From assembly GCA_937146725.1 (NCBI GenBank), contig CAKZRU010000182.1, positions 1-64,000 on the forward strand: 64,000 nt of DNA. Direction: 5' to 3'. The DNA comes from an uncultured Myxococcales bacterium (lineage in GTDB: Bacteria; Myxococcota_A; Bradymonadia; UBA7976; VGTA01). The translations under genes and the position numbers were made by a program. Shown one piece after another: positions 375 to 10,348 of this stretch (position 1 is its first letter; each line of letters begins with the position of its first letter). The notes under the pieces were generated by a model. That model saw nothing but the letters and a program-made list of their open reading frames with translations. It searched no databases and was not told the DNA's origin.

Positions 375-2762
375 TTAACCCCCATACACTTTAGGGTAGC
401 CATAGCCTTCGGCAATTTCTCCACAGTAATGCCAAGCTGCATCATGGAGCTTTTTTTCCCAATCTCTTGGGTGAGGGAAATCACCACCGCGCTGAGCGTT
501 TAGCTTTTGTGAGAGGACTTGCTGGGCTTGCTGGGCTTGATACCCTTCTAGCTCTAAGAAGCTGAAGATGTCTTCGGCGAGTTTAGGCCCCTTGATTAAG
601 TCCTCAAACTTTACAATCATGACTCGATCTTGACCGATCTTTTCGATTGCTTGGTTGATGTGGCGGTAGGTTTCTGCCCATAGCCAACACACCTTTTCGA
701 AGGGGTGCATTTTAGGCCAGTTTAGTTTTTTAGCTTGCTTAGGAAGTGGTTTGAGTCGGCCATCATCCCAAGGGCCACCGGCGATATAATAGCCACGTCT
801 CATGCCCGAGCGGATAAACTCTCTTGGATCACGAACCAACACTAAGAACTTAGAGTTTGGGATGTCTTTGGCGATCTCAGCGGCAAAGGGAGTCATATTA
901 TGATCGGTTTCACCGTGGATTTTTCCCTGTTCCCATGCATGCGCTAAAATATGAGAACGACCACGCCAAAATGTATCTCCAACCGATATTATATTTTGAT
1001 AGGCATGAAGGGTTTCCATGATCATGTTGGGCTCTGGATGGTGCCATACAACAGCATTTTGAGCCATTTCCATAAGGTGAGCTAATGTCTGTGTTCCGGA
1101 ACGGCCGGTAGATAAAACAAAAAATGCTCGATGCTTAGACTGTTGATCTAACTGTTGACTTGAGACTTTAGTTTTAGCTGTACTTTGCGCTAACTGCTGC
1201 CAAACCTCACTGAAAACATTTTTAATTTTTTGCTCAAGACCCAACTTAAAAGGGCCGGCATGCAGATAAACCGCTTGGGAACTTTCGCCTTCATAGCCAC
1301 CTTCTTTAATCATCTGGTCAGAAGGAATATAGGCGATATTGCCATTAGTATAACTTAACACAAAGGCCAAAGGATCTAGTTCTGTATGACACCAACGAGC
1401 ATAGTCACTGACCGCTTCTCCATTAAAAGCATTGAGTTTCCACTGACCGATTTGCAGAAAGCCTAAGTTAAGTTCGAGCGTATCTTGCTTAAACTTTGGA
1501 TATTTAGCAAAGACTTGATCTCGTTCTTGATTGAGCTGATCAAGACTTGCTCTCTCCTGCTCTTTGCTTTTGATATGGTCTATGTTTAACTCAGCAATCA
1601 AGTTTGCTTGGGCTGATTGAATATAACCTGTGATTGGTTTGAGTGGCTGCGCAAGGGTTTGATTAACCGCAGTAATTAACGGAACTACAGCATCTTTTGC
1701 TTCTTGGATTGTATTTGGCCAACGACGTTCCTCGCCATCATTGATAGCGACTTTATGATCACCAGCCGCCCCTTGTAAAAACATCACGCCACTGAGATTT
1801 TGTTGTTGCTTAAGGGCATTACGTAATAAGCCGGGATAGGCACTGGAAATTACAGGGCATGCTCCATACTCTGTTGGGTGGCATCCATAATTCACCAATA
1901 TAAGGCTTTGTGAACTTTCTTGCCATGTCACCTTGGCGAGACCAAGCTGATTATAGGAAAGTTTAGGATCTTGGTTGGCTAAAACACCAGCAAGAAGCTG
2001 ACCATCTTTATGCACTCTACGAAATACACCAACCGACGCTTGCCCCTGTCCTAATTCTATACTTGCTGGCCTGAGTTGCTGTCTGAGTTTTGGGAGAGCT
2101 CTAATGATTTGATTCACCACAAACTCTGCATAAGCTTTAGAGTACTGGCCCAAAGAGGGTAGAGCTCTTTGTAAAGTAGGGGGGGCATAGTGGGTATGAC
2201 TTGCGTTGAGTAAAACGGCTGTATCTGGGATTTGCCATAGACCCGCATATTTCCGAATATCAGCAACAATCTTTGGATCGAAAGCAAAAAGATCAGCGCT
2301 GATCATTAAGGCCCTGCTTCCTTTAGCATCTTCAAGCATAAGCGCTTGAAGTTTGAGAGGACTCAAAACATCTTGTGCAATTCTTTTTTGTGCTGTGGCA
2401 TAGCCCTGTAATTCCACTCGGAAATCTTTAGGGGTAATATCAAGTTCAAGAAAGGCCGCTAAAAAGCTATGAGTTGAGTTTTGGCGAGTGCTTAGCAAAG
2501 TAAGGCGCTCTGCAAAGAGCTCGGCAGCCGGTTCTTCACCAATCAGCTCGGCTAGTTTGGTGATCGATTGAATACATTGTTCTTGATCGCCTTGTAACTC
2601 GGCTAAAACAGCTGACCAAGCAATGGCTTCAAAATGCTCAGGTACTAATGATTGAGCGATGGCTAAGCATTCAAGAGCTTCTGCTGGTTTTCCAAGTAGC
2701 CAGGCATCTTGACACTGAGCCAAAAGTTCAGAATAAAGTGAGTTTATGTTGTCGTCAGCCAC
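375..2762 (-). CDS. Neutral-ceramidase-like / sulfotransferase fusion protein
   Basis: This 795-residue protein has three parts. Residues 1 to about 95 are helical and TPR-like. Residues about 105-480 resemble the catalytic region of neutral ceramidases, with a SHTHYAPP motif near 190, a GCHPTEYG motif near 293 and GAAGD near 332, matching the family's His-rich zinc site. From about 548 to the end it is a P-loop sulfotransferase: STGRSGTQT near 555 would bind the 5'-phosphosulfate of PAPS, and VLVRDPREFIRSG near 640 the 3'-phosphate. There is no signal peptide, although ceramidases are usually exported, so a cytoplasmic role in sphingolipid-like or other amide-lipid chemistry is possible. The start is GTG, with AAGGG six bases upstream. 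I know of no standard family with this domain order. Each domain call is good; the joint function is inference. Confidence 0.8.
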   Translation of the reverse strand: MADDNINSLYSELLAQCQDAWLLGKPAEALECLAIAQSLVPEHFEAIAWSAVLAELQGDQEQCIQSITKLAELIGEEPAAELFAERLTLLSTRQNSTHSFLAAFLELDITPKDFRVELQGYATAQKRIAQDVLSPLKLQALMLEDAKGSRALMISADLFAFDPKIVADIRKYAGLWQIPDTAVLLNASHTHYAPPTLQRALPSLGQYSKAYAEFVVNQIIRALPKLRQQLRPASIELGQGQASVGVFRRVHKDGQLLAGVLANQDPKLSYNQLGLAKVTWQESSQSLILVNYGCHPTEYGACPVISSAYPGLLRNALKQQQNLSGVMFLQGAAGDHKVAINDGEERRWPNTIQEAKDAVVPLITAVNQTLAQPLKPITGYIQSAQANLIAELNIDHIKSKEQERASLDQLNQERDQVFAKYPKFKQDTLELNLGFLQIGQWKLNAFNGEAVSDYARWCHTELDPLAFVLSYTNGNIAYIPSDQMIKEGGYEGESSQAVYLHAGPFKLGLEQKIKNVFSEVWQQLAQSTAKTKVSSQQLDQQSKHRAFFVLSTGRSGTQTLAHLMEMAQNAVVWHHPEPNMIMETLHAYQNIISVGDTFWRGRSHILAHAWEQGKIHGETDHNMTPFAAEIAKDIPNSKFLVLVRDPREFIRSGMRRGYYIAGGPWDDGRLKPLPKQAKKLNWPKMHPFEKVCWLWAETYRHINQAIEKIGQDRVMIVKFEDLIKGPKLAEDIFSFLELEGYQAQQAQQVLSQKLNAQRGGDFPHPRDWEKKLHDAAWHYCGEIAEGYGYPKVYGG

Positions 2763-2846: not shown

Positions 2847-3989
2847 TTAATTTCCGATCTGCATCCACTGTTCAATTTGCTGTTTGATCTTTTGTCCCCG
2901 GGCATCCCAAGTGAGCTCATCGGAACGCTCTTGGGCACCTTGGGCAAGGCGGGTACATAGCTCTGGTTGATCTCTTAATTTTCTGAGTTCTTCCACTAAC
3001 AAAGGAGAATTGTCAGTGCCGACTAACCAGGCGTTTTCATTATGATTTAAAACATCGGCGGTATCAGGGGAACGAGGCGCTACAATCGGGCGGCCACAGG
3101 CTAAATACTCAAAGATTTTCATGGGGAGTACTGTATTGCCGGTTTTAAGTGCAATCGATGAACTAGGAATCATTAGGACATCACAAGCGCTTAAAAGGGT
3201 GGGAACATAGCTAGGCTTTTGCCAAGGCAGTAAGGTCACATTAGGTAAGGCTTCGGCTCGGTCTAAGACCTCTTGGTCTTTGCCTCCTCCGGCAAGTAGC
3301 AAGTGAATATCCGGTGCAAGTTCAGCGACCTCAATAAGTGTTAAGATCCCTTTTTCAATATCTAGGCGACCGGTATATCCAATCACTAAGCGATCTTGGG
3401 GCAGACCTAATTCGGTTTTTGCCTCACTTTTTGGGGGCGCTTTTTGATAACTTTCCGGATGAAAACCATTGTGAGCCACCATAAGCTTGCTTGGCTCAAT
3501 GCCTACATCAACATAGGCCTGTCGAGCCAAAGCTGAGTGAAAAAAGCCTCCCAAGAGTAAGGGGTTTTTAAAAAGTGACTGGAATTGCCAGCGCATGAAC
3601 GCATATTGCTTGGGCCATGGGCGATAGGTGTCATATACCGCTTTAATTCCGGCTTGGAGAGCTTGGCGAATGGCTAAAATATTGCGTGAATAAACTAGGT
3701 CAAAACCTTCATCCTTAATGTGCTTCATCGCTTCACGACAATGGCTCCACTTGTGGATAAAGCGTGGAACAAGACTTGAGCGCTGAAGCTGTCTAATTTC
3801 GATTTGGCCACTCAAGCTATAATGTTCGAGGATCTCTTGGGTTGTTAAAGGGCGTTCATGCAGAGCTTGAGCACAAAAGATCGTCACTTGGATCCCTTGC
3901 CGACTTAAGGCGAGGGCTGTGTTTAAAACCTGCCAAGCATCAGCACCGGTCGAAGGGTAAAACCCATCATAGATATAAGCGAGTTTCAT
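2847..3989 (-). CDS. Glycosyltransferase, family GT4-like
   Basis: This 380-residue cytoplasmic or membrane-associated glycosyltransferase has the GT-B fold. The N-terminal half opens with a Gly-rich acceptor-side segment (GADAWQVLNTALALSRQG). The C-terminal half has the nucleotide-sugar domain: VIGYTGRLDIEKG near residue 203, then PMKIFEYLACGRPIVAP, which carries the Glu residues that bind the donor in GT4 enzymes. It overlaps the upstream FAD oxidase gene by 4 bp (ATGA-type overlap), so the two are translationally coupled. The neighbours (oxidase, epimerase) suggest synthesis or modification of a polysaccharide or glycolipid. Donor and acceptor cannot be read from the sequence. Confidence 0.88.
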   Translation of the reverse strand: MKLAYIYDGFYPSTGADAWQVLNTALALSRQGIQVTIFCAQALHERPLTTQEILEHYSLSGQIEIRQLQRSSLVPRFIHKWSHCREAMKHIKDEGFDLVYSRNILAIRQALQAGIKAVYDTYRPWPKQYAFMRWQFQSLFKNPLLLGGFFHSALARQAYVDVGIEPSKLMVAHNGFHPESYQKAPPKSEAKTELGLPQDRLVIGYTGRLDIEKGILTLIEVAELAPDIHLLLAGGGKDQEVLDRAEALPNVTLLPWQKPSYVPTLLSACDVLMIPSSSIALKTGNTVLPMKIFEYLACGRPIVAPRSPDTADVLNHNENAWLVGTDNSPLLVEELRKLRDQPELCTRLAQGAQERSDELTWDARGQKIKQQIEQWMQIGN

Positions 3990-5314
3990 GAATCTTCCTT
4001 TGACTGATTAGGCGTTAAACCAAGTTCTTGAGCAAATGAATTAAGGAACTTTCCCTGTGGATCCAAGCGATTTCGATAGGTCTTAAACTCGGACCACTGT
4101 GGATAAAGCTGATGGATTTCAGATAAAGGCTGAAAGCTACATTTACCCCAATGCTGTCGGGTTTGATAACGCATCAGTATTTTGGGGATCTTTTGCATCA
4201 GTGGGTTCTCGGGATAAATAAACAAAGAGACCCAAACCGCTGCCTGACCCTGAGAAGCAAATAAAGTTCCTCGTTCGGCGGCGGCCGGTCGTAAACCAAT
4301 GGGACGATCGGGATAGTAGCCGGTCTGAGCAAAAAGGGCCCGTAATTCTTGGATGAGAGCTTTAGCTTGGGTCAGGCTCACCGCAAACTCACCCTCGGGT
4401 GGCGTTCGATTTCTTGCTCTTTTTTTGAGAATCGCCTCAGCACTCCCATTGAGCGGGGCGATCATATGGTGATAAAGCCCACTGTATTGGCGGGGCTTAA
4501 GTAAGCGACTGGCCCAAAAAGCTAAGCGATTCGCCAAACGTCCTCGCCAAGTTTGACCCTCAAAGTCTCGGCCGGCATAAGCCAACTTTTTGGAAAGCCA
4601 ATCCAAGATCAGAGTGGGTGTATTAAAACGGGTTTCACGTTGCGGTAAAGCATGAGGATCAATGGTGTCTGAACGCTCTCCGGAATAATCCAAAACATAA
4701 TCTAGCGCGGGTAGCCAAATCGCCGCTTGGAACTCAGCACCTTGTGGATTTAAAAGGCGAGGTAAGTAATCATCGAACTTGAGAAGGTGACGTTTGAGAT
4801 CAATCGTAAAGCTTGGTTCACATTGTAAAACATACGATAAAGCGATACCGGTTAAGCCCAAGCTAGGTAGAAGATGTGGAAACTCCGGGTCTTCTTCTTG
4901 AAAGGTATGCACTTGCCCTTGACCATCAACGAGCGTTAAGGATTTGACCACCGAGGCCACTGAACCATGAAAATATGAACCTCCATGCGTACCGGTAGAA
5001 ATCGCTCCGCCTACTGTTTGGCCATGCCATTCTCCAATATTAGGAAGCGCAAGGTCTTTTTGGTCTAAAAAACTAAGAAGATCCTTGAGAATCACCCCTG
5101 CGCCGACCTCAACCTGATTATTTTCAAGGCGTTTTAAAGTTTGAAAGTGATCTAAATGAATCAAAGTGCCTTGGCTTTGAAAGCAAGGACTTTTAGAGGT
5201 TTGAGAGCCCACGGGTCTAAGCAGGTCTAGATGGGAAAGACCTTCTTTTAAAGTCAGCTTCTGTATATGTGCTTGGAGATCCTCATTATTGCTTGGGGTG
5301 TAATGCTGATTCAT
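3986..5314 (-). CDS. FAD-linked oxidoreductase, sugar-lactone oxidase (ALO/GLO) type
   Basis: This 442-residue protein has an N-terminal PCMH-type FAD-binding domain with the segment GQTVGGAISTGTHGGS (about 103-118), the hallmark of L-gulono/D-arabinono-lactone oxidases and relatives. The C-terminal ALO-type domain has a RQHWGKCSFQP segment and ends in YRNRLDPQGKFLNSF, the usual closing motif. Family members oxidise sugar lactones, alditols or, in DprE1, a lipid-linked ribose. The gene sits between an epimerase gene (13 bp away) and a glycosyltransferase gene (4-bp overlap), so a sugar or lipid-linked sugar substrate is likely. The exact substrate is unknown. Confidence 0.85.
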   Translation of the reverse strand: MNQHYTPSNNEDLQAHIQKLTLKEGLSHLDLLRPVGSQTSKSPCFQSQGTLIHLDHFQTLKRLENNQVEVGAGVILKDLLSFLDQKDLALPNIGEWHGQTVGGAISTGTHGGSYFHGSVASVVKSLTLVDGQGQVHTFQEEDPEFPHLLPSLGLTGIALSYVLQCEPSFTIDLKRHLLKFDDYLPRLLNPQGAEFQAAIWLPALDYVLDYSGERSDTIDPHALPQRETRFNTPTLILDWLSKKLAYAGRDFEGQTWRGRLANRLAFWASRLLKPRQYSGLYHHMIAPLNGSAEAILKKRARNRTPPEGEFAVSLTQAKALIQELRALFAQTGYYPDRPIGLRPAAAERGTLFASQGQAAVWVSLFIYPENPLMQKIPKILMRYQTRQHWGKCSFQPLSEIHQLYPQWSEFKTYRNRLDPQGKFLNSFAQELGLTPNQSKEDS

Positions 5315-5326
5315 CGCGAACTCATC

Positions 5327-6373
5327 TCACTTGTGCTTTGCATAAATTAAGTGCTGTGGCTCATACCCTAACAAGCGTTGAGTATGTTGATGAGGATAGT
5401 GAAACTTTGGTGTATAGCCTGTAGATCTAACCTCTCCTCGTAATGTCGCAACCCCATCAATCGTATAGCGAATAAGGGTATCAAGCACCCAAGGTAAGCG
5501 CCAGGTCCATACACCTAACCTTTGGGCAATATGCTTATGAAACAGACTTAATTCAATGGCTTCCGCTGCCAAATTAAAGACTTGGTTCTTAGCTTCAGCC
5601 TTGCTACCCATCAACATAAATCCCTGAACTAAGTCATCGATATGAATAAAGTTGAAGACAACTCGCCCAAAGCAAATATGATAACGGCTCACCAAGTTTT
5701 CGACTTGACTCCCCCATGGACGGCATCCCGGGCCATAAACATTCGTTGGTCTCACAATCACATAGTCCATATTATGCTGTTGAGCCGATGAGGGATTAGA
5801 TGAGGGATTGAGTGACGCACAAAGTGACTTGCACAGATGCTCACCTTCGAGCTTACTTCGGCTATAATGGTTAAGCTTAGGATGTAAATAGGGCTCAAGG
5901 GCCTCATCAAAAATATAATTTGAGCTTTTTGTACCACGATAGACCGAAATCGAACTCACATAAATAAAGCGCTTGACCTGTGCCGAATGAGCAACCTCAA
6001 TGATATGTCGAGTCCCCTCAATATTGACTTGGTCACTAAGTTTCGGGTCTTTTTTACCCATGAAAGCTGCGCAGTGAATGACTAAATCAGTATCAGTACA
6101 GAGTTTTTTTAAGGCCTTATGGTCATCAAGGTCACCTTGAATGAGATTGATGTCTGACCAAAAAGGATCATCAGCATATTTGGTAGTATTTCTGAGTAAG
6201 GCATTTACTGCAATCCCACAAGCATGATAGGCGCTGACTAATGCTTTACCAATAAAACCATTGGCCCCGGTGATGGCCACTCGCTTGATCTGAATAGGCT
6301 CTTTGGAGACTTGCTTGTTTGTAGATGTAGATGTCAACTCAGACACAGATGTAGATACGGAATCAGACACCAT
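5327..6373 (-). CDS. NAD-dependent epimerase/dehydratase (extended SDR)
   Basis: This 348-residue extended short-chain dehydrogenase has a Rossmann motif TGANGFIG at about 35-42 and the catalytic Tyr-x3-Lys as YSRSK near 170. IVRPTNVYGPG follows, as is typical of nucleotide-sugar epimerases and 3-beta-HSD-like enzymes. About 30 residues rich in Ser, Thr and Val precede the fold and look like a non-conserved extension. A good AAGGGAG ribosome-binding site precedes the ATG, so this start is favoured despite the odd N-terminus. It is the first gene of the tight minus-strand run epimerase-oxidase-glycosyltransferase. The substrate is probably an activated or lipid-linked sugar; this is inferred from context. 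Confidence 0.87.
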   Translation of the reverse strand: MVSDSVSTSVSELTSTSTNKQVSKEPIQIKRVAITGANGFIGKALVSAYHACGIAVNALLRNTTKYADDPFWSDINLIQGDLDDHKALKKLCTDTDLVIHCAAFMGKKDPKLSDQVNIEGTRHIIEVAHSAQVKRFIYVSSISVYRGTKSSNYIFDEALEPYLHPKLNHYSRSKLEGEHLCKSLCASLNPSSNPSSAQQHNMDYVIVRPTNVYGPGCRPWGSQVENLVSRYHICFGRVVFNFIHIDDLVQGFMLMGSKAEAKNQVFNLAAEAIELSLFHKHIAQRLGVWTWRLPWVLDTLIRYTIDGVATLRGEVRSTGYTPKFHYPHQHTQRLLGYEPQHLIYAKHK

Positions 6374-6564
6374 GAACTCCCTTAGGACAGCCGGCCATAA
6401 AGCCCGATGAAAACCTTATTAATCGCTCTGTTCTTAGCATAAGTTATAAAGTCTGCAAAGGTTTGACTCTATTCTTAGATTTGAAATCTTTTGCACATAT
6501 TGTTTATAGATGGACCTGATTCAACTTTCACTAAAGTAGACAGTGGCTAAAGTTGACTTGTTCT

Positions 6565-7875
6565 TTACAGGAATCGTGCTAATAAAAAGCCTACTGCGAC
6601 AAGAGCAATCACCAACAATAAAAGTGAAGCATAAAGAATCAGCACATTTTGTAAGCTGTGATTTAACCATTTATTAAGGCGAACAGTCATTTTTTTGGTG
6701 AAGGTACGCGGACAGACCACTTCAAACTCATCATTTAATGCGGCTTCAAAATATAGAAGCATTTCATGAGCCGAGGTATAGCGTTTAGTTAGATCTGGAG
6801 TGAGGGCCTTAATAATGGCTTGTGTATATTCAGAAGGCATATATCTTTGAGTTGGGTGAAAAACAAAATCCGGTATTTTAGGCTTATGACTTTGGAGTAA
6901 ATCCACTAATTCTTGTAAGGTTTGGGCTTTGGGTGCGGCTTGGCTTAGAGTCATGAGCTCATAGGCGACCGCACCAATCGAATAGAGATCGCTTTGTGGG
7001 CCAATGGGCTTTGCTTGTGCCTGTTCGGGTGACATATACAAAGGAGTGCCACATAAAATAGGGTTAGTTTGAGCAACATCAAAGTCTTCAGCAATGCCCC
7101 AATCCAATAAATACAGTTCACCTTGAGCACCGATCTTGATATTTTCAGGCTTAATATCTCGATGTAAAACTCGAGAGCCATGTGCCTGAATCATGACTCT
7201 TAGCAATTGAGTGATGAGCTGGGCTCTATACCGAAAGGTGTATTTGGCATGCGTTTTTGCATCTCCGGCTTGTAGCAAAGCAATGATATGTTCAAGGGAA
7301 TCTCCTTCAACCTGCTTCATCACAATATAAGGAGCGCCTTCATGAGTGCGTGAGGCCTGATATACCGGTGGCACACTTGGGTGTTCCAAGCGTCCAACAA
7401 AGCGTAATTCATTGTGACAAGCCAATAGGGCCTGCGTGCCTTCACCCTTAAATTGCTTTAAGGCAACATTACGATTTAGATCACGGTCATGAGCCCCAAA
7501 AACATCACCAAAGGCACCACTGCCAAGCTTAGATTGAACCTCAAAGCGCTCTAATGTTTGGTGAGTGTGAGTTTGATCAAGAGGTAAATCACTAAAAAGT
7601 GAAGGCCCAAAGGTTTTGGAAAGCAGAGTTTTTTGCTCAAGACTGTTTTGTTCATTTTCTTGATTGGATTCAAGATGGTGTTGAACATGAGCATCATTTT
7701 GAGTCCGGTGAACTTGTGCTTGTGCAACTGTCATATCCAAGTGATCTGCAAAGAGAGTGGCGGAAAAGTACTCATCTGACAGTTGCAGAACTGTTTGATC
7801 TAAATTGGAGTTCATTTCTTGTTCTGATTCATTCACTGTTGACTGAAAACCTGCGTTTGTATCTGCATGATCCAT
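6565..7875 (-). CDS. Membrane-anchored Ser/Thr protein kinase
   Basis: This 436-residue Hanks-type kinase has a Gly-rich loop LGSGAFGDVFG near residue 112, the ATP-anchoring Lys in VALKQF near 140 and a catalytic loop LHRDIKPENIKI near 235. The metal-binding motif is DWG rather than DFG, a variant also seen in other bacterial kinases. An activation-segment motif GTPLYMSPEQ follows. The first 100 residues are polar, Gln/His-rich and without a recognised domain. A single C-terminal transmembrane helix (about 411-432) anchors it with the kinase in the cytoplasm, and no extracellular sensor follows. It lies upstream of the epimerase gene with a 190-bp gap, so co-transcription is uncertain. All key catalytic residues are present. 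Confidence 0.92.
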   Translation of the reverse strand: MDHADTNAGFQSTVNESEQEMNSNLDQTVLQLSDEYFSATLFADHLDMTVAQAQVHRTQNDAHVQHHLESNQENEQNSLEQKTLLSKTFGPSLFSDLPLDQTHTHQTLERFEVQSKLGSGAFGDVFGAHDRDLNRNVALKQFKGEGTQALLACHNELRFVGRLEHPSVPPVYQASRTHEGAPYIVMKQVEGDSLEHIIALLQAGDAKTHAKYTFRYRAQLITQLLRVMIQAHGSRVLHRDIKPENIKIGAQGELYLLDWGIAEDFDVAQTNPILCGTPLYMSPEQAQAKPIGPQSDLYSIGAVAYELMTLSQAAPKAQTLQELVDLLQSHKPKIPDFVFHPTQRYMPSEYTQAIIKALTPDLTKRYTSAHEMLLYFEAALNDEFEVVCPRTFTKKMTVRLNKWLNHSLQNVLILYASLLLLVIALVAVGFLLARFL

Positions 7876-8053
7876 GATTAAAACCTGTCTTCTTGGGCCA
7901 AAACTTATCTGTTTAGATTAAGCTAGCTAGAACAAGATCAATGTCAAGACCATAAGTTTTTTATAAGCTTTGGTCAGAATCTTTCCTTTCAACTTTTAGC
8001 GATATGGTAATAACAGATTTTGTACATAGCTTAATCAAAGGTTGAAAAAATGT

Positions 8054-8082
8054 TTGACACTAAATATAACAATCGTTATACA
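8054..8082 (+). promoter_or_regulatory. Sigma-70-type promoter with overlapping palindrome
   Basis: TTGACA (8054-8059) and TATACA (8077-8082) are separated by exactly 17 bp, close to a consensus vegetative promoter. An inverted repeat, TATAAC (8065-8070) / GTTATA (8075-8080) with a 4-bp spacer, covers the spacer and runs into the -10 box. A protein bound there would block RNA polymerase. It lies about 60 bp upstream of the ferrochelatase-like gene. The promoter call is strong; the operator call is inference. Confidence 0.75.
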
Positions 8083-8142
8083 AAGATTGTTTTTAACTTA
8101 CATATCTTCAATTTAGCTTCATTTTTATGACAGGAACATCAA

Positions 8143-9375
8143 ATGGATCAGCACTTAAACATCCGTAATCTATCTTTCAACCAATTATCACTCAGCATGA
8201 TGCTGAAGCTCATTTTAACCCTATTGGTCGCTCAACTCTGCTTGGCCTGTGCAAATGATGGTGGCATTGGTGAATCATCAAGTTTATCCGGTTCTCGTAC
8301 GGCTTTATCGGGTACAGCTGGCAAGTCGGATGCCGACAAACAACCCATTGCTATTTTCTTAACCTCACATGGTGATATCGACCAATATGAAGAAATCGAA
8401 CCATATATCCGCAGTGCCTTTTTGAAGAATGTCGGCGTACCTTTGCCTAAGACTTTAAGAGAGCTATTACAAGATCCCGCATATTGGTTGAGCAAAGACC
8501 TTATTGAGGGTCAGTATGAGTTGATTGGGCCCACAAATTATCGAGCGAATGCTCAGTTGCAAATCGATGCACTACAAGCTGAGTTGGACCGAAAAGGCGT
8601 ACCCGCTAAGGTGTATATTGGATATAACTTTATGCCTCCATTTATTGAAGATACCGCAGCGCAAATGGAAGCCGATGGCGTAGAAGAAATCATCGTTTTT
8701 AATAAGGGCGCTCAGTATTCCTTAGCAACTTTAGGTGAGTCGATTGAAGAGCTAGAGCATTACCTAGAGAAACGACCCGAATGGGATGTTAAGGTCACTG
8801 CAGTAAGACAGTTTAGTGATGACCCTCGTTTTATCGACCTTTATGTCAAGACCTTGAAAGCTGAATTGGATGAATACTTCCCAAATGTACCAGACCAAGA
8901 TCGCTGTGTTCTGATTGCCTCGCATGGTCTGCCGACCCGTTTGATCAATATGGGGGACCCCGCTGTTGATCAAATGCTCAATACTTTTGAAGTCCTAAAA
9001 GAGCGTATTTCTGAATCACCTTTATATCACGGCTTTTTAAATGATGATTTCTTCCCAGGTGCCGAATGGGTCTCTCCAAGCGCGCCCGATACAGCACATG
9101 AAATGCGTTCAGTCTCTTGTCCAGCTGTGCTTATGGACGCACGTTTATCATTTACAACGCATCACCGAGCCACTCTTTATGATCTAGATATCGATGTTCG
9201 CTCAATCTTAGAAGAACCTGATTTACAGCCCAATGGTGAAGTTCATCCACTATACAACAGTCCTAAAGTTGTATTTGCCAATCAATGGGATGGTGATTTA
9301 GGCTTTGCACAACTATTAGCAAACCTCAGTGTAGAAGCACTTAAAGGACAGGGCGATTTAATCTTTGTTCAATAA
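8143..9375 (+). CDS. Exported ferrochelatase-fold protein (likely non-canonical)
   Basis: This 410-residue protein starts with a hydrophobic export signal ending in LCLAC (an imperfect lipobox) and a Ser/Gly-rich linker. The rest aligns by eye along its whole length with ferrochelatase (HemH): GPTNYRANAQ, then KVYIGYNFMPPFIED, GAQYSLATLGES, and the signature ASHGLPTRLINMGDPAVDQ, whose His (H261) matches the conserved metal-handling His. In the second active-site segment, FTTHHRATLYDLDID matches FTSDHIETLYELDIE of human ferrochelatase. The His of that motif is kept (H341), but the preceding Asp is His and the catalytic Glu is Ala (A343). Canonical ferrochelatases are cytoplasmic or membrane-associated, not exported. 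It may bind or sense porphyrin or metal outside the cytoplasm rather than make haem. AGGAA six bases before the ATG supports the start. Confidence 0.82.
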   Translation: MDQHLNIRNLSFNQLSLSMMLKLILTLLVAQLCLACANDGGIGESSSLSGSRTALSGTAGKSDADKQPIAIFLTSHGDIDQYEEIEPYIRSAFLKNVGVPLPKTLRELLQDPAYWLSKDLIEGQYELIGPTNYRANAQLQIDALQAELDRKGVPAKVYIGYNFMPPFIEDTAAQMEADGVEEIIVFNKGAQYSLATLGESIEELEHYLEKRPEWDVKVTAVRQFSDDPRFIDLYVKTLKAELDEYFPNVPDQDRCVLIASHGLPTRLINMGDPAVDQMLNTFEVLKERISESPLYHGFLNDDFFPGAEWVSPSAPDTAHEMRSVSCPAVLMDARLSFTTHHRATLYDLDIDVRSILEEPDLQPNGEVHPLYNSPKVVFANQWDGDLGFAQLLANLSVEALKGQGDLIFVQ

Positions 9376-9493
9376 GTCAGTTCTTTTCTGCAATTATTCG
9401 CTTCAATCATGTAGGATCTTTCTTTACTCAAGTTCATAATCACTTTACATTTATCGTCTAGATTAATTGAGTTTTAAATATTGAGTATTCAGC

Positions 9494-10348
9494 ATGTCAG
9501 ATTCCACAAAACTTGAGCCAAAAACACCAAGTATACCGGATAAACAAGAGTTTATAACCGATGCTGAAATTACTCAAGAATGGAAGCGAGAGCAGTTAAA
9601 ATCAGAGTCAAATCGGGACAGCAACGGTGAACCGACTCAAGAAGATGAGTGGTTGGCAGCGTCTTCTCAGCATGTCGAGTTTGCTCAAGATATCGAGTCT
9701 ACCCAAGAATGGTATCCGCCTTCAGATCGTCCTTTGGCACAAACGCCTGTGATAGAACCCAATGATGATTTAAGTGATTTAAAAACGATTGATTTGGCAC
9801 AGCTCAACTTAACATCTGCACTGAGCCTTACTGGGGATGTACTTACCATCACTACGCCACGGGTAAGTTGGCGGAGTAGGGACATCCTCTTTATCGTCCT
9901 TAGCTTGGGTACAATAGGTCTTTTATTAATTGGTCCCTTAAAGGTGGTATTTTGGCTAGATGCCGAGGTTGCAGTCCCTTTGTTTTTTGCCCTAACTATG
10001 CTTTTTTGGTTGATGATTATTGGAGTTTTTGTTGGTTTTTATCGCAAACAAACATTGGTCATTAATTCAGAACAACTGATTTATAGCACTTATCTACCAA
10101 GTCAGCTGGGTAAAATGCCGAACTTTACACTCTTTAAAAAAAACTATCCTTTAGATCAGCTTATTGAAGCTACCAATGATTTTTACACTGAAGATAGTTT
10201 TGTAAGTCACTGTTTGGTCTTAAAGATGCAAGGTGAGCAGCCAAATCTATTCTTTGCTCCTATGTTAGACTTAGAGGAAAGACAGCTTCTTGCCGAACAG
10301 ATTCATGCGCATCTTATTCGCTTACAAAAGAGTAAGTTCAGCTCTTAA
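9494..10348 (+). CDS. Membrane protein, two transmembrane helices, unknown function
   Basis: I do not recognise this 284-residue protein. Its first 125 residues are polar, acidic and rich in Glu, Asp, Ser and Thr, with repeated TQE/TQEW motifs, and are probably disordered. Two transmembrane helices follow (about 130-153 and 158-182), making a hairpin. About 100 residues with a mixed alpha/beta pattern close the protein, in the arrangement often seen in PH-like YdbT/YcxB-type membrane proteins, but the similarity is too weak to assign. It follows the ferrochelatase-like gene by 118 bp on the same strand, so co-expression is possible. Confidence 0.7.
   Translation: MSDSTKLEPKTPSIPDKQEFITDAEITQEWKREQLKSESNRDSNGEPTQEDEWLAASSQHVEFAQDIESTQEWYPPSDRPLAQTPVIEPNDDLSDLKTIDLAQLNLTSALSLTGDVLTITTPRVSWRSRDILFIVLSLGTIGLLLIGPLKVVFWLDAEVAVPLFFALTMLFWLMIIGVFVGFYRKQTLVINSEQLIYSTYLPSQLGKMPNFTLFKKNYPLDQLIEATNDFYTEDSFVSHCLVLKMQGEQPNLFFAPMLDLEERQLLAEQIHAHLIRLQKSKFSS

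Follow-up and report, generated by a model that had tools for sequence, protein, structure and literature searches.

An enzyme that joins a deacetylase to a sulfotransferase in one chain has been described in animals: in NDST1, a noncatalytic N-terminal domain is followed by the deacetylase and then by the sulfotransferase, and the deacetylase folds as a (β/α)7 barrel whose metal site is His-His-Asp (PMC10864358). Expression of animal NDSTs in bacteria is a recognized bottleneck of heparin biosynthesis, and artificial fusions are being built (PMC13353177). In cultured bacteria, N-sulfated glycosaminoglycan-like polymers (75 to 80% N-sulfated) have been measured with their enzymes unknown, and prokaryotes are stated to have no known sulfotransferases that act on glycosaminoglycans (PMC7356697). 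A survey of the open-access literature yielded no description of the domain pair reported below, of a bacterial NDST, or of enzymes for sulfated flagellin glycans.

The window analyzed here, a stretch of 64,000 nucleotides from an uncultured Myxococcales bacterium, encodes a protein of 795 aa (positions 375 to 2762, minus strand) that unites a TPR-like front, a ceramidase-type zinc amidase, and a PAPS sulfotransferase. It resembles NDST in having, in one chain and in identical order, a helper domain, an amidase or deacetylase, and a PAPS sulfotransferase and, if our proposal for it is right, in removing an N-acyl group before sulfation. However, its deacylase has the neutral-ceramidase fold with a His/His/Glu/Tyr site instead of the (β/α)7 barrel and His-His-Asp site of NDST, and NDST is a Golgi membrane protein, whereas the fusion is predicted to be cytosolic, with a TPR-like front. 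Because the barrel of the NDST deacetylase is unrelated to this fold, the fusion is not a member of the NDST family; by analogy, it may work like one, and the resemblance would then be convergent.

The two catalytic parts have described relatives of their own. The amidase shares with neutral ceramidases (2zws and 4wgk; PF04734) its fold and the positions of the HTH motif, the Glu, and the Tyr. Those enzymes are secreted or membrane anchored and end in an Ig-like domain, whereas in the fusion the sulfotransferase occupies the place of the C-terminal domain, the GDVSPN motif is replaced by a GDxK-type sequence, and the gene lies in a glycan setting. Further, neither a signal peptide nor a hydrophobic stretch was found at the N terminus of the window protein, unlike in known neutral ceramidases and in L018, a lipoprotein-type paralogue encoded in the same genome. 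The sulfotransferase part has the fold and the PAPS-binding motifs (5'-PSB loop and 3'-PB motif) of tyrosylprotein sulfotransferases and the Sulfotransfer_3 family (PF13469) but differs from these in being joined to an amidase and in carrying WHHP and HGETD motifs, which are conserved in all eight fused members.

Architecture and predicted active sites

The gene, which starts with GTG, is a single uninterrupted open reading frame 795 codons long. Its helical TPR-like front (residues 1 to 93; positions 2484 to 2762) comprises five helices in the AlphaFold model, the confidence of which is moderate for the window protein (pLDDT of 76 and 75). This front is shorter than that of the relatives (~140 residues), and its TPR_16 match in Pfam is subthreshold, whereas the relatives give strong TPR matches. 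The amidase domain (residues 95 to 525; positions 1188 to 2480) is connected to the sulfotransferase domain (residues 545 to 795; positions 378 to 1130) by a linker modeled with low confidence (residues 526 to 544; positions 1131 to 1187; pLDDT of <50 around residues 530 to 539), through which the frame is unbroken. The original prediction had placed a ceramidase-type zinc amidase and a PAPS sulfotransferase in one polypeptide with a TPR-like front and no signal peptide; the intact frame, the profile matches, and the predicted folds bear this out, and all of the motifs that it cited are present, namely, SHTHYAPP (residues 188 to 195), GCHPTEYG (293 to 300), GAAGD (331 to 335), STGRSGTQT (551 to 559), and VLVRDPREF (641 to 649). 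An assembly or frame error near residue 540, or an origin from parts that are separate genes in relatives, can be ruled out, because full-length relatives in seven other genomes (35 to 41% identity) carry the same fusion and the frame is intact across the junction. No NCBIfam model for this domain fusion was found.

Used alone as a Foldseek query, the model of the amidase domain confidently matched neutral ceramidases and nothing else: the Pseudomonas aeruginosa enzyme (2zws; E = 3.6e-20; TM score of 0.67 by query length) and the human enzyme (4wgk; E = 1.3e-17), with TM scores of 0.67 to 0.68 over both. Profile comparison also recovered 2zws (E = 2.5e-9), and Ceramidase_alk (PF04734) was matched in five of six orthologues in Pfam searches (best E = 1.3e-7); the window protein itself, a divergent member, gave no ceramidase-domain match in Pfam. 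Sequence identity to 2zws and 4wgk is only 11 to 15%.

Within this domain, H189-T190-H191 (positions 2190 to 2198) includes a predicted zinc ligand, H189, and, by alignment, the counterpart of the catalytic His196 of human neutral ceramidase, H191. The HTH motif aligns with AATHTHSGP of 2zws and is invariant across an alignment of 18 proteins that comprises fused, stand-alone, and secreted members. The other predicted zinc ligands are H295 of GCHPT (positions 1878 to 1880), kept in all fused members; E449 (positions 1416 to 1418), which falls on the Glu of the 2zws PAEF motif in the alignment and is conserved in every fused and every stand-alone protein; and Y490 of GGYE (positions 1293 to 1295), a zinc ligand or active-site Tyr that is invariant and aligned with YEGG of 2zws. 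R248-R249 (positions 2016 to 2021), retained in all eight sulfotransferase-fused members, is a candidate counterpart of Arg257, in a register that is not exact. Assigned by alignment, with the same reservation for the Arg, the HTH, RR, CHP, GE, and GGYE elements are retained by every fused member and by nearly every stand-alone one. Human neutral ceramidase uses His196, Arg257, Tyr579, and Tyr591, with Ser354 holding Arg257 in place (PMC6952831). Counterparts of the His, one Tyr, and the Arg pair are kept in the window protein; that of the Ser is not kept, and it is variable in stand-alone members also. Likewise, the ceramidase motif GDVSPN is not matched, as the window protein has GDHKVA and its relatives have GDIKQG-like sequences, and this motif too varies among stand-alone members. 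The replacement of SPN suggests that catalysis may differ from that of ceramidases.

The sulfotransferase domain matched Sulfotransfer_3 above the Pfam cutoff (E = 1.2e-10) and PF00685 (E = 1.1e-6). Its best fold matches are tyrosylprotein sulfotransferases (Foldseek E of about 4e-7), and NDST1 is also among the matches (E = 1.4e-3). The 5'-phosphosulfate-binding loop STGRSGTQT (residues 551 to 559; positions 1086 to 1112) is invariant in the six members from the window's order and conforms to S[TA]GR[SC]GT in all eight fused proteins, in which the Arg and Ser of the 3'-phosphate-binding motif R644-x7-S652 (RDPREFIRS; positions 807 to 833) are also invariant. Both catalytic sites of the fusion thus appear, from their conserved residues, to be intact. 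The host can make PAPS, as its genome encodes an APS kinase (E = 1.5e-68) within a frame of 648 aa.

Phyletic distribution and the Desulfamplus relatives

Five of the full-length relatives are three-part proteins from other genomes of the window's order (39 to 41% identical over their full length), in which 6 of the 16 genomes searched are carriers, with the window's genome counted. The other two, L024 and L025, are from Desulfobacterales and carry the full fusion. When 84,980 named species genomes were scanned with short exact peptides, a search to be read as nonexhaustive, ten loci were returned, namely, the five fusions from the order, L024 and L025, and three from Desulfamplus; the fusion family looks rare. 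With the window protein counted, the fusion is known in eight proteins, and the two lineages that hold them are distant from each other. A sister genome of the same genus is without the fusion gene. A phage origin was considered and rejected, as viral contigs yielded no relative of the fusion.

In a quick tree, the window protein is the most divergent member. Within the phylum, Ceramidase_alk proteins also occur in stand-alone form (L043 to L046). These make up a separate branch and have the same catalytic residues in about 440 aa with no obvious signal peptide, but they lack a sulfotransferase domain and have GDLNP instead of the GDxK of the fusion. Lipoprotein-type ceramidase-family paralogues with a GDMSP motif are also present in the window's genus (L018, positions 6777 to 8927, minus strand, on contig C3 of the window's genome, G000; and L019, positions 7779 to 9959, minus strand, on contig C9 of genome G001), and these are placed far from the fusion branch. 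Across 237 genomes of the phylum, high-scoring sulfotransferase domains of this type were found only in the fusions, the free relatives being much weaker (best E of 1.9e-44 versus 1e-136 or better).

Of eleven proteins with this type of amidase, eight are fused to a sulfotransferase, and in these, as in the stand-alone proteins of the wider family, all of the predicted zinc-binding and catalytic residues are present. The remaining three, the Desulfamplus proteins L027 to L029, have no sulfotransferase domain, and a search of the Desulfamplus genomes for a relative of it found none. In these proteins, the Glu ligand is lost in all three (A, G, and G, respectively), and in L028 and L029 the ligand His corresponding to H295 is replaced by Gln and the Arg pair is gone. 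Because the Desulfamplus clade is nested among the Desulfobacterales fusions in the quick tree (support of 0.999 for the whole clade and 0.67 for the inner node), their state is probably the outcome of one loss of the sulfotransferase with decay of the zinc site, rather than ancestral. This decay counts as one evolutionary event, not many. Since the loss of the one activity was accompanied by decay of the site of the other, it suggests that the amidase and sulfotransferase work as a unit.

Gene neighborhoods

The contig ends 374 bases past the fusion gene, and the neighborhood in the window is thus its upstream side. There, the fusion appears to be the last gene of an operon, all on the minus strand, that begins with an NAD-dependent sugar epimerase/dehydratase of the SDR type (positions 5327 to 6373; PF01370, E = 1e-33), followed by an FAD-dependent sugar-lactone/DprE1-like oxidase (positions 3986 to 5314; PF04030, E = 9.7e-22; TIGR01679 at 124 bits, below its cutoff), whose gene overlaps by 4 bases the start of a family 4 glycosyltransferase (GT4; positions 2847 to 3989; PF00534, E = 5e-23), itself 84 bases upstream of the fusion. 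Farther along the window, a ferrochelatase-family protein (positions 8143 to 9375, plus strand; PF00762, E = 1.4e-41) has an N terminus resembling a lipoprotein signal (LLTLLVAQLCLACANDG), and judging from this it is apparently located outside the cytoplasm.

Glycan gene sets surround the fusions of L021, L022, and L026 and comprise rmlA and rmlB, one gene for a sugar C-methyltransferase, two for DegT aminotransferases, and one for a dTDP-sugar isomerase; in L021 and L026 these are joined by a TPR-glycosyltransferase 2 (TPR-GT2), a methyltransferase of the CmcI type, and a second sulfotransferase. The latter is different from that of the fusion and lies within its glycan cluster (L021, positions 5728 to 6663, plus strand, and L026; HIGANKTGSTSLQ; PF13469, E = 5.8e-9). 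The GT2 that is a separate protein in L021 has its counterpart in L024 (39% identity; E = 1.6e-79) fused to the C terminus of the amidase-sulfotransferase, the gene for which adjoins nucleotidyltransferase and dehydratase genes and shares its contig with a flagellin gene. The fusion of L025 bears a C-terminal GSCFA domain and is adjacent to a GT41 gene. L029, from Desulfamplus magnetovallimortis, is a GT2-TPR-amidase with a further C-terminal part that is glycosyltransferase-like by eye, and it lies close to a gene of the MptE-like family, which includes the Maf flagellin glycosyltransferases. Glycan neighbors are fewer in L020 (one DegT-like and one TPR gene) and in L023 (sugar epimerase, glycosyltransferase, and formyltransferase). 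The stand-alone ceramidase-type L046 is found in a gene set with a β-N-acetylglucosaminidase and a DegT aminotransferase. A divergent crotonase/naphthoate synthase-like gene, 84 to 95% identical among its copies, is conserved upstream of the fusion in L020, L021, L023, and L026 and was not found in the window.

The visible neighbors are thus mostly genes for glycosyltransferases and nucleotide-sugar enzymes, which suggests a role in modifying a sugar coat rather than a lipid. Because no counterparts of the window's GT4 and FAD oxidase were found at the relatives' loci, what the carriers have in common is the type of pathway and not one particular sugar pathway. A shared branched-sugar pathway was likewise rejected as the general partner, as a search of the window's genome found neither the C-methyltransferase nor the TPR-GT2 that accompany the fusion in L021. 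As to the possible link to the adjacent glycosyltransferase and oxidase in the original prediction, the glycosyltransferase would fit a role in glycan synthesis, but neither neighbor is common to the relatives' loci.

Flagellin was considered as an acceptor. All carriers have flagellin genes, but so do nearly all noncarriers (18 of 20 genomes), so that the presence of such genes does not discriminate. The window's genome has 25 Flagellin_N matches spread over many contigs (e.g., C164, C12, C9, and C60), several of them in frames of 1,300 to 1,870 aa, and the sister genome has 20.

Proposed function and alternative readings

Our favored reading, put forward tentatively as quite possible, is that the fusion acts on glycans in the cytoplasm as a bifunctional N-deacylase/sulfotransferase. 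In a growing glycan destined for the surface or linked to a protein, its zinc amidase would take the N-acyl group off an amino sugar, and the sulfotransferase would then move sulfate from PAPS onto the deacylated product. The freed amine would be the simplest sulfate acceptor, with N-sulfation resembling that by animal NDST on heparosan, and the TPR front might dock the enzyme to a glycosyltransferase or to the acceptor protein. A more specific version, which we regard as somewhat doubtful, is that of an independently evolved bacterial N-deacylase/N-sulfotransferase in which the ceramidase fold was recruited for amino sugars and N-sulfated surface or flagellar glycans are made via one cytosolic enzyme. 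Speaking against a glycan deacylase, the DegT aminotransferases of some clusters could supply free amino sugars without one. To our knowledge, the neutral-ceramidase amidase fold has been characterized on ceramides only; if our reading is true, it would be extended from lipids to glycans, and the fusion, as a natural deacylase-sulfotransferase from bacteria, would offer a direct candidate both for the bacterial N-sulfation enzymes and for use in heparin biosynthesis.

The ranking of tyrosylprotein sulfotransferases, and not NDST, as the top fold matches bears on an alternative in which the two domains serve different positions of the same glycan, with the amidase de-N-acylating one residue and the sulfotransferase O-sulfating another site of that glycan or a tyrosine of a protein. 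The predicted cytosolic location and the TPR front would fit a protein acceptor, and flagellin, GT41, and MptE-like genes lie near the Desulfobacterales loci. However, a fold match alone does not distinguish between acceptors, and the zinc-site decay alongside loss of the sulfotransferase suggests that the two steps are interdependent; we consider this alternative unlikely.

The neutral-ceramidase fold of the amidase speaks for the original prediction of a hydrolysis and sulfation route on an N-acyl amino lipid, which would here be ceramide-like. The fusion is real, its sites are apparently intact, its parts behave as an evolutionary unit, and the two-step hydrolysis and sulfation scheme is plausible, but the lipid substrate is not supported. 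The predicted cytosolic location, the glycan gene sets, and the fusion of relatives to glycosyltransferases all run counter to it. Moreover, no sphingolipid pathway is evident in the window's genome, where a curated serine palmitoyltransferase model does not reach its cutoff (best score of 295 of 500 bits), which weakens a sphingolipid route; the cutoff is reached in one of nine carrier genomes tested and missed in the other eight, and related enzymes match the model below it in all 14 control genomes. As the window's genome is 92% complete, this absence is not proof, and the search bears on sphingolipids; a different N-acyl amino lipid, for example an ornithine lipid, would escape it. A lipid substrate is, in our judgment, improbable.

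Neutral ceramidases also catalyze the reverse N-acylation, and the clusters contain aminotransferases that produce free amino sugars; the amidase might then act in synthesis or acyl transfer, making an N-acyl amino sugar for the sulfotransferase. Without an activated acyl donor, synthesis would be unfavorable in the cytosol, and the hydrolytic residues are all retained, which makes this direction highly improbable. Least probable of all is that the amidase is a noncatalytic or glycan-binding module and the sulfotransferase alone matters, for although Desulfamplus retains the fold after decay of its zinc site and the window member is the most divergent, every predicted ligand is kept in all eight sulfotransferase-fused members.

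The Desulfamplus amidases themselves have been retained despite the loss of zinc ligands and sulfotransferase; they are fused to TPR elements, with a GT2 and the further C-terminal part also present in L029, and in this genus the amidase domain has possibly turned into a binding module.
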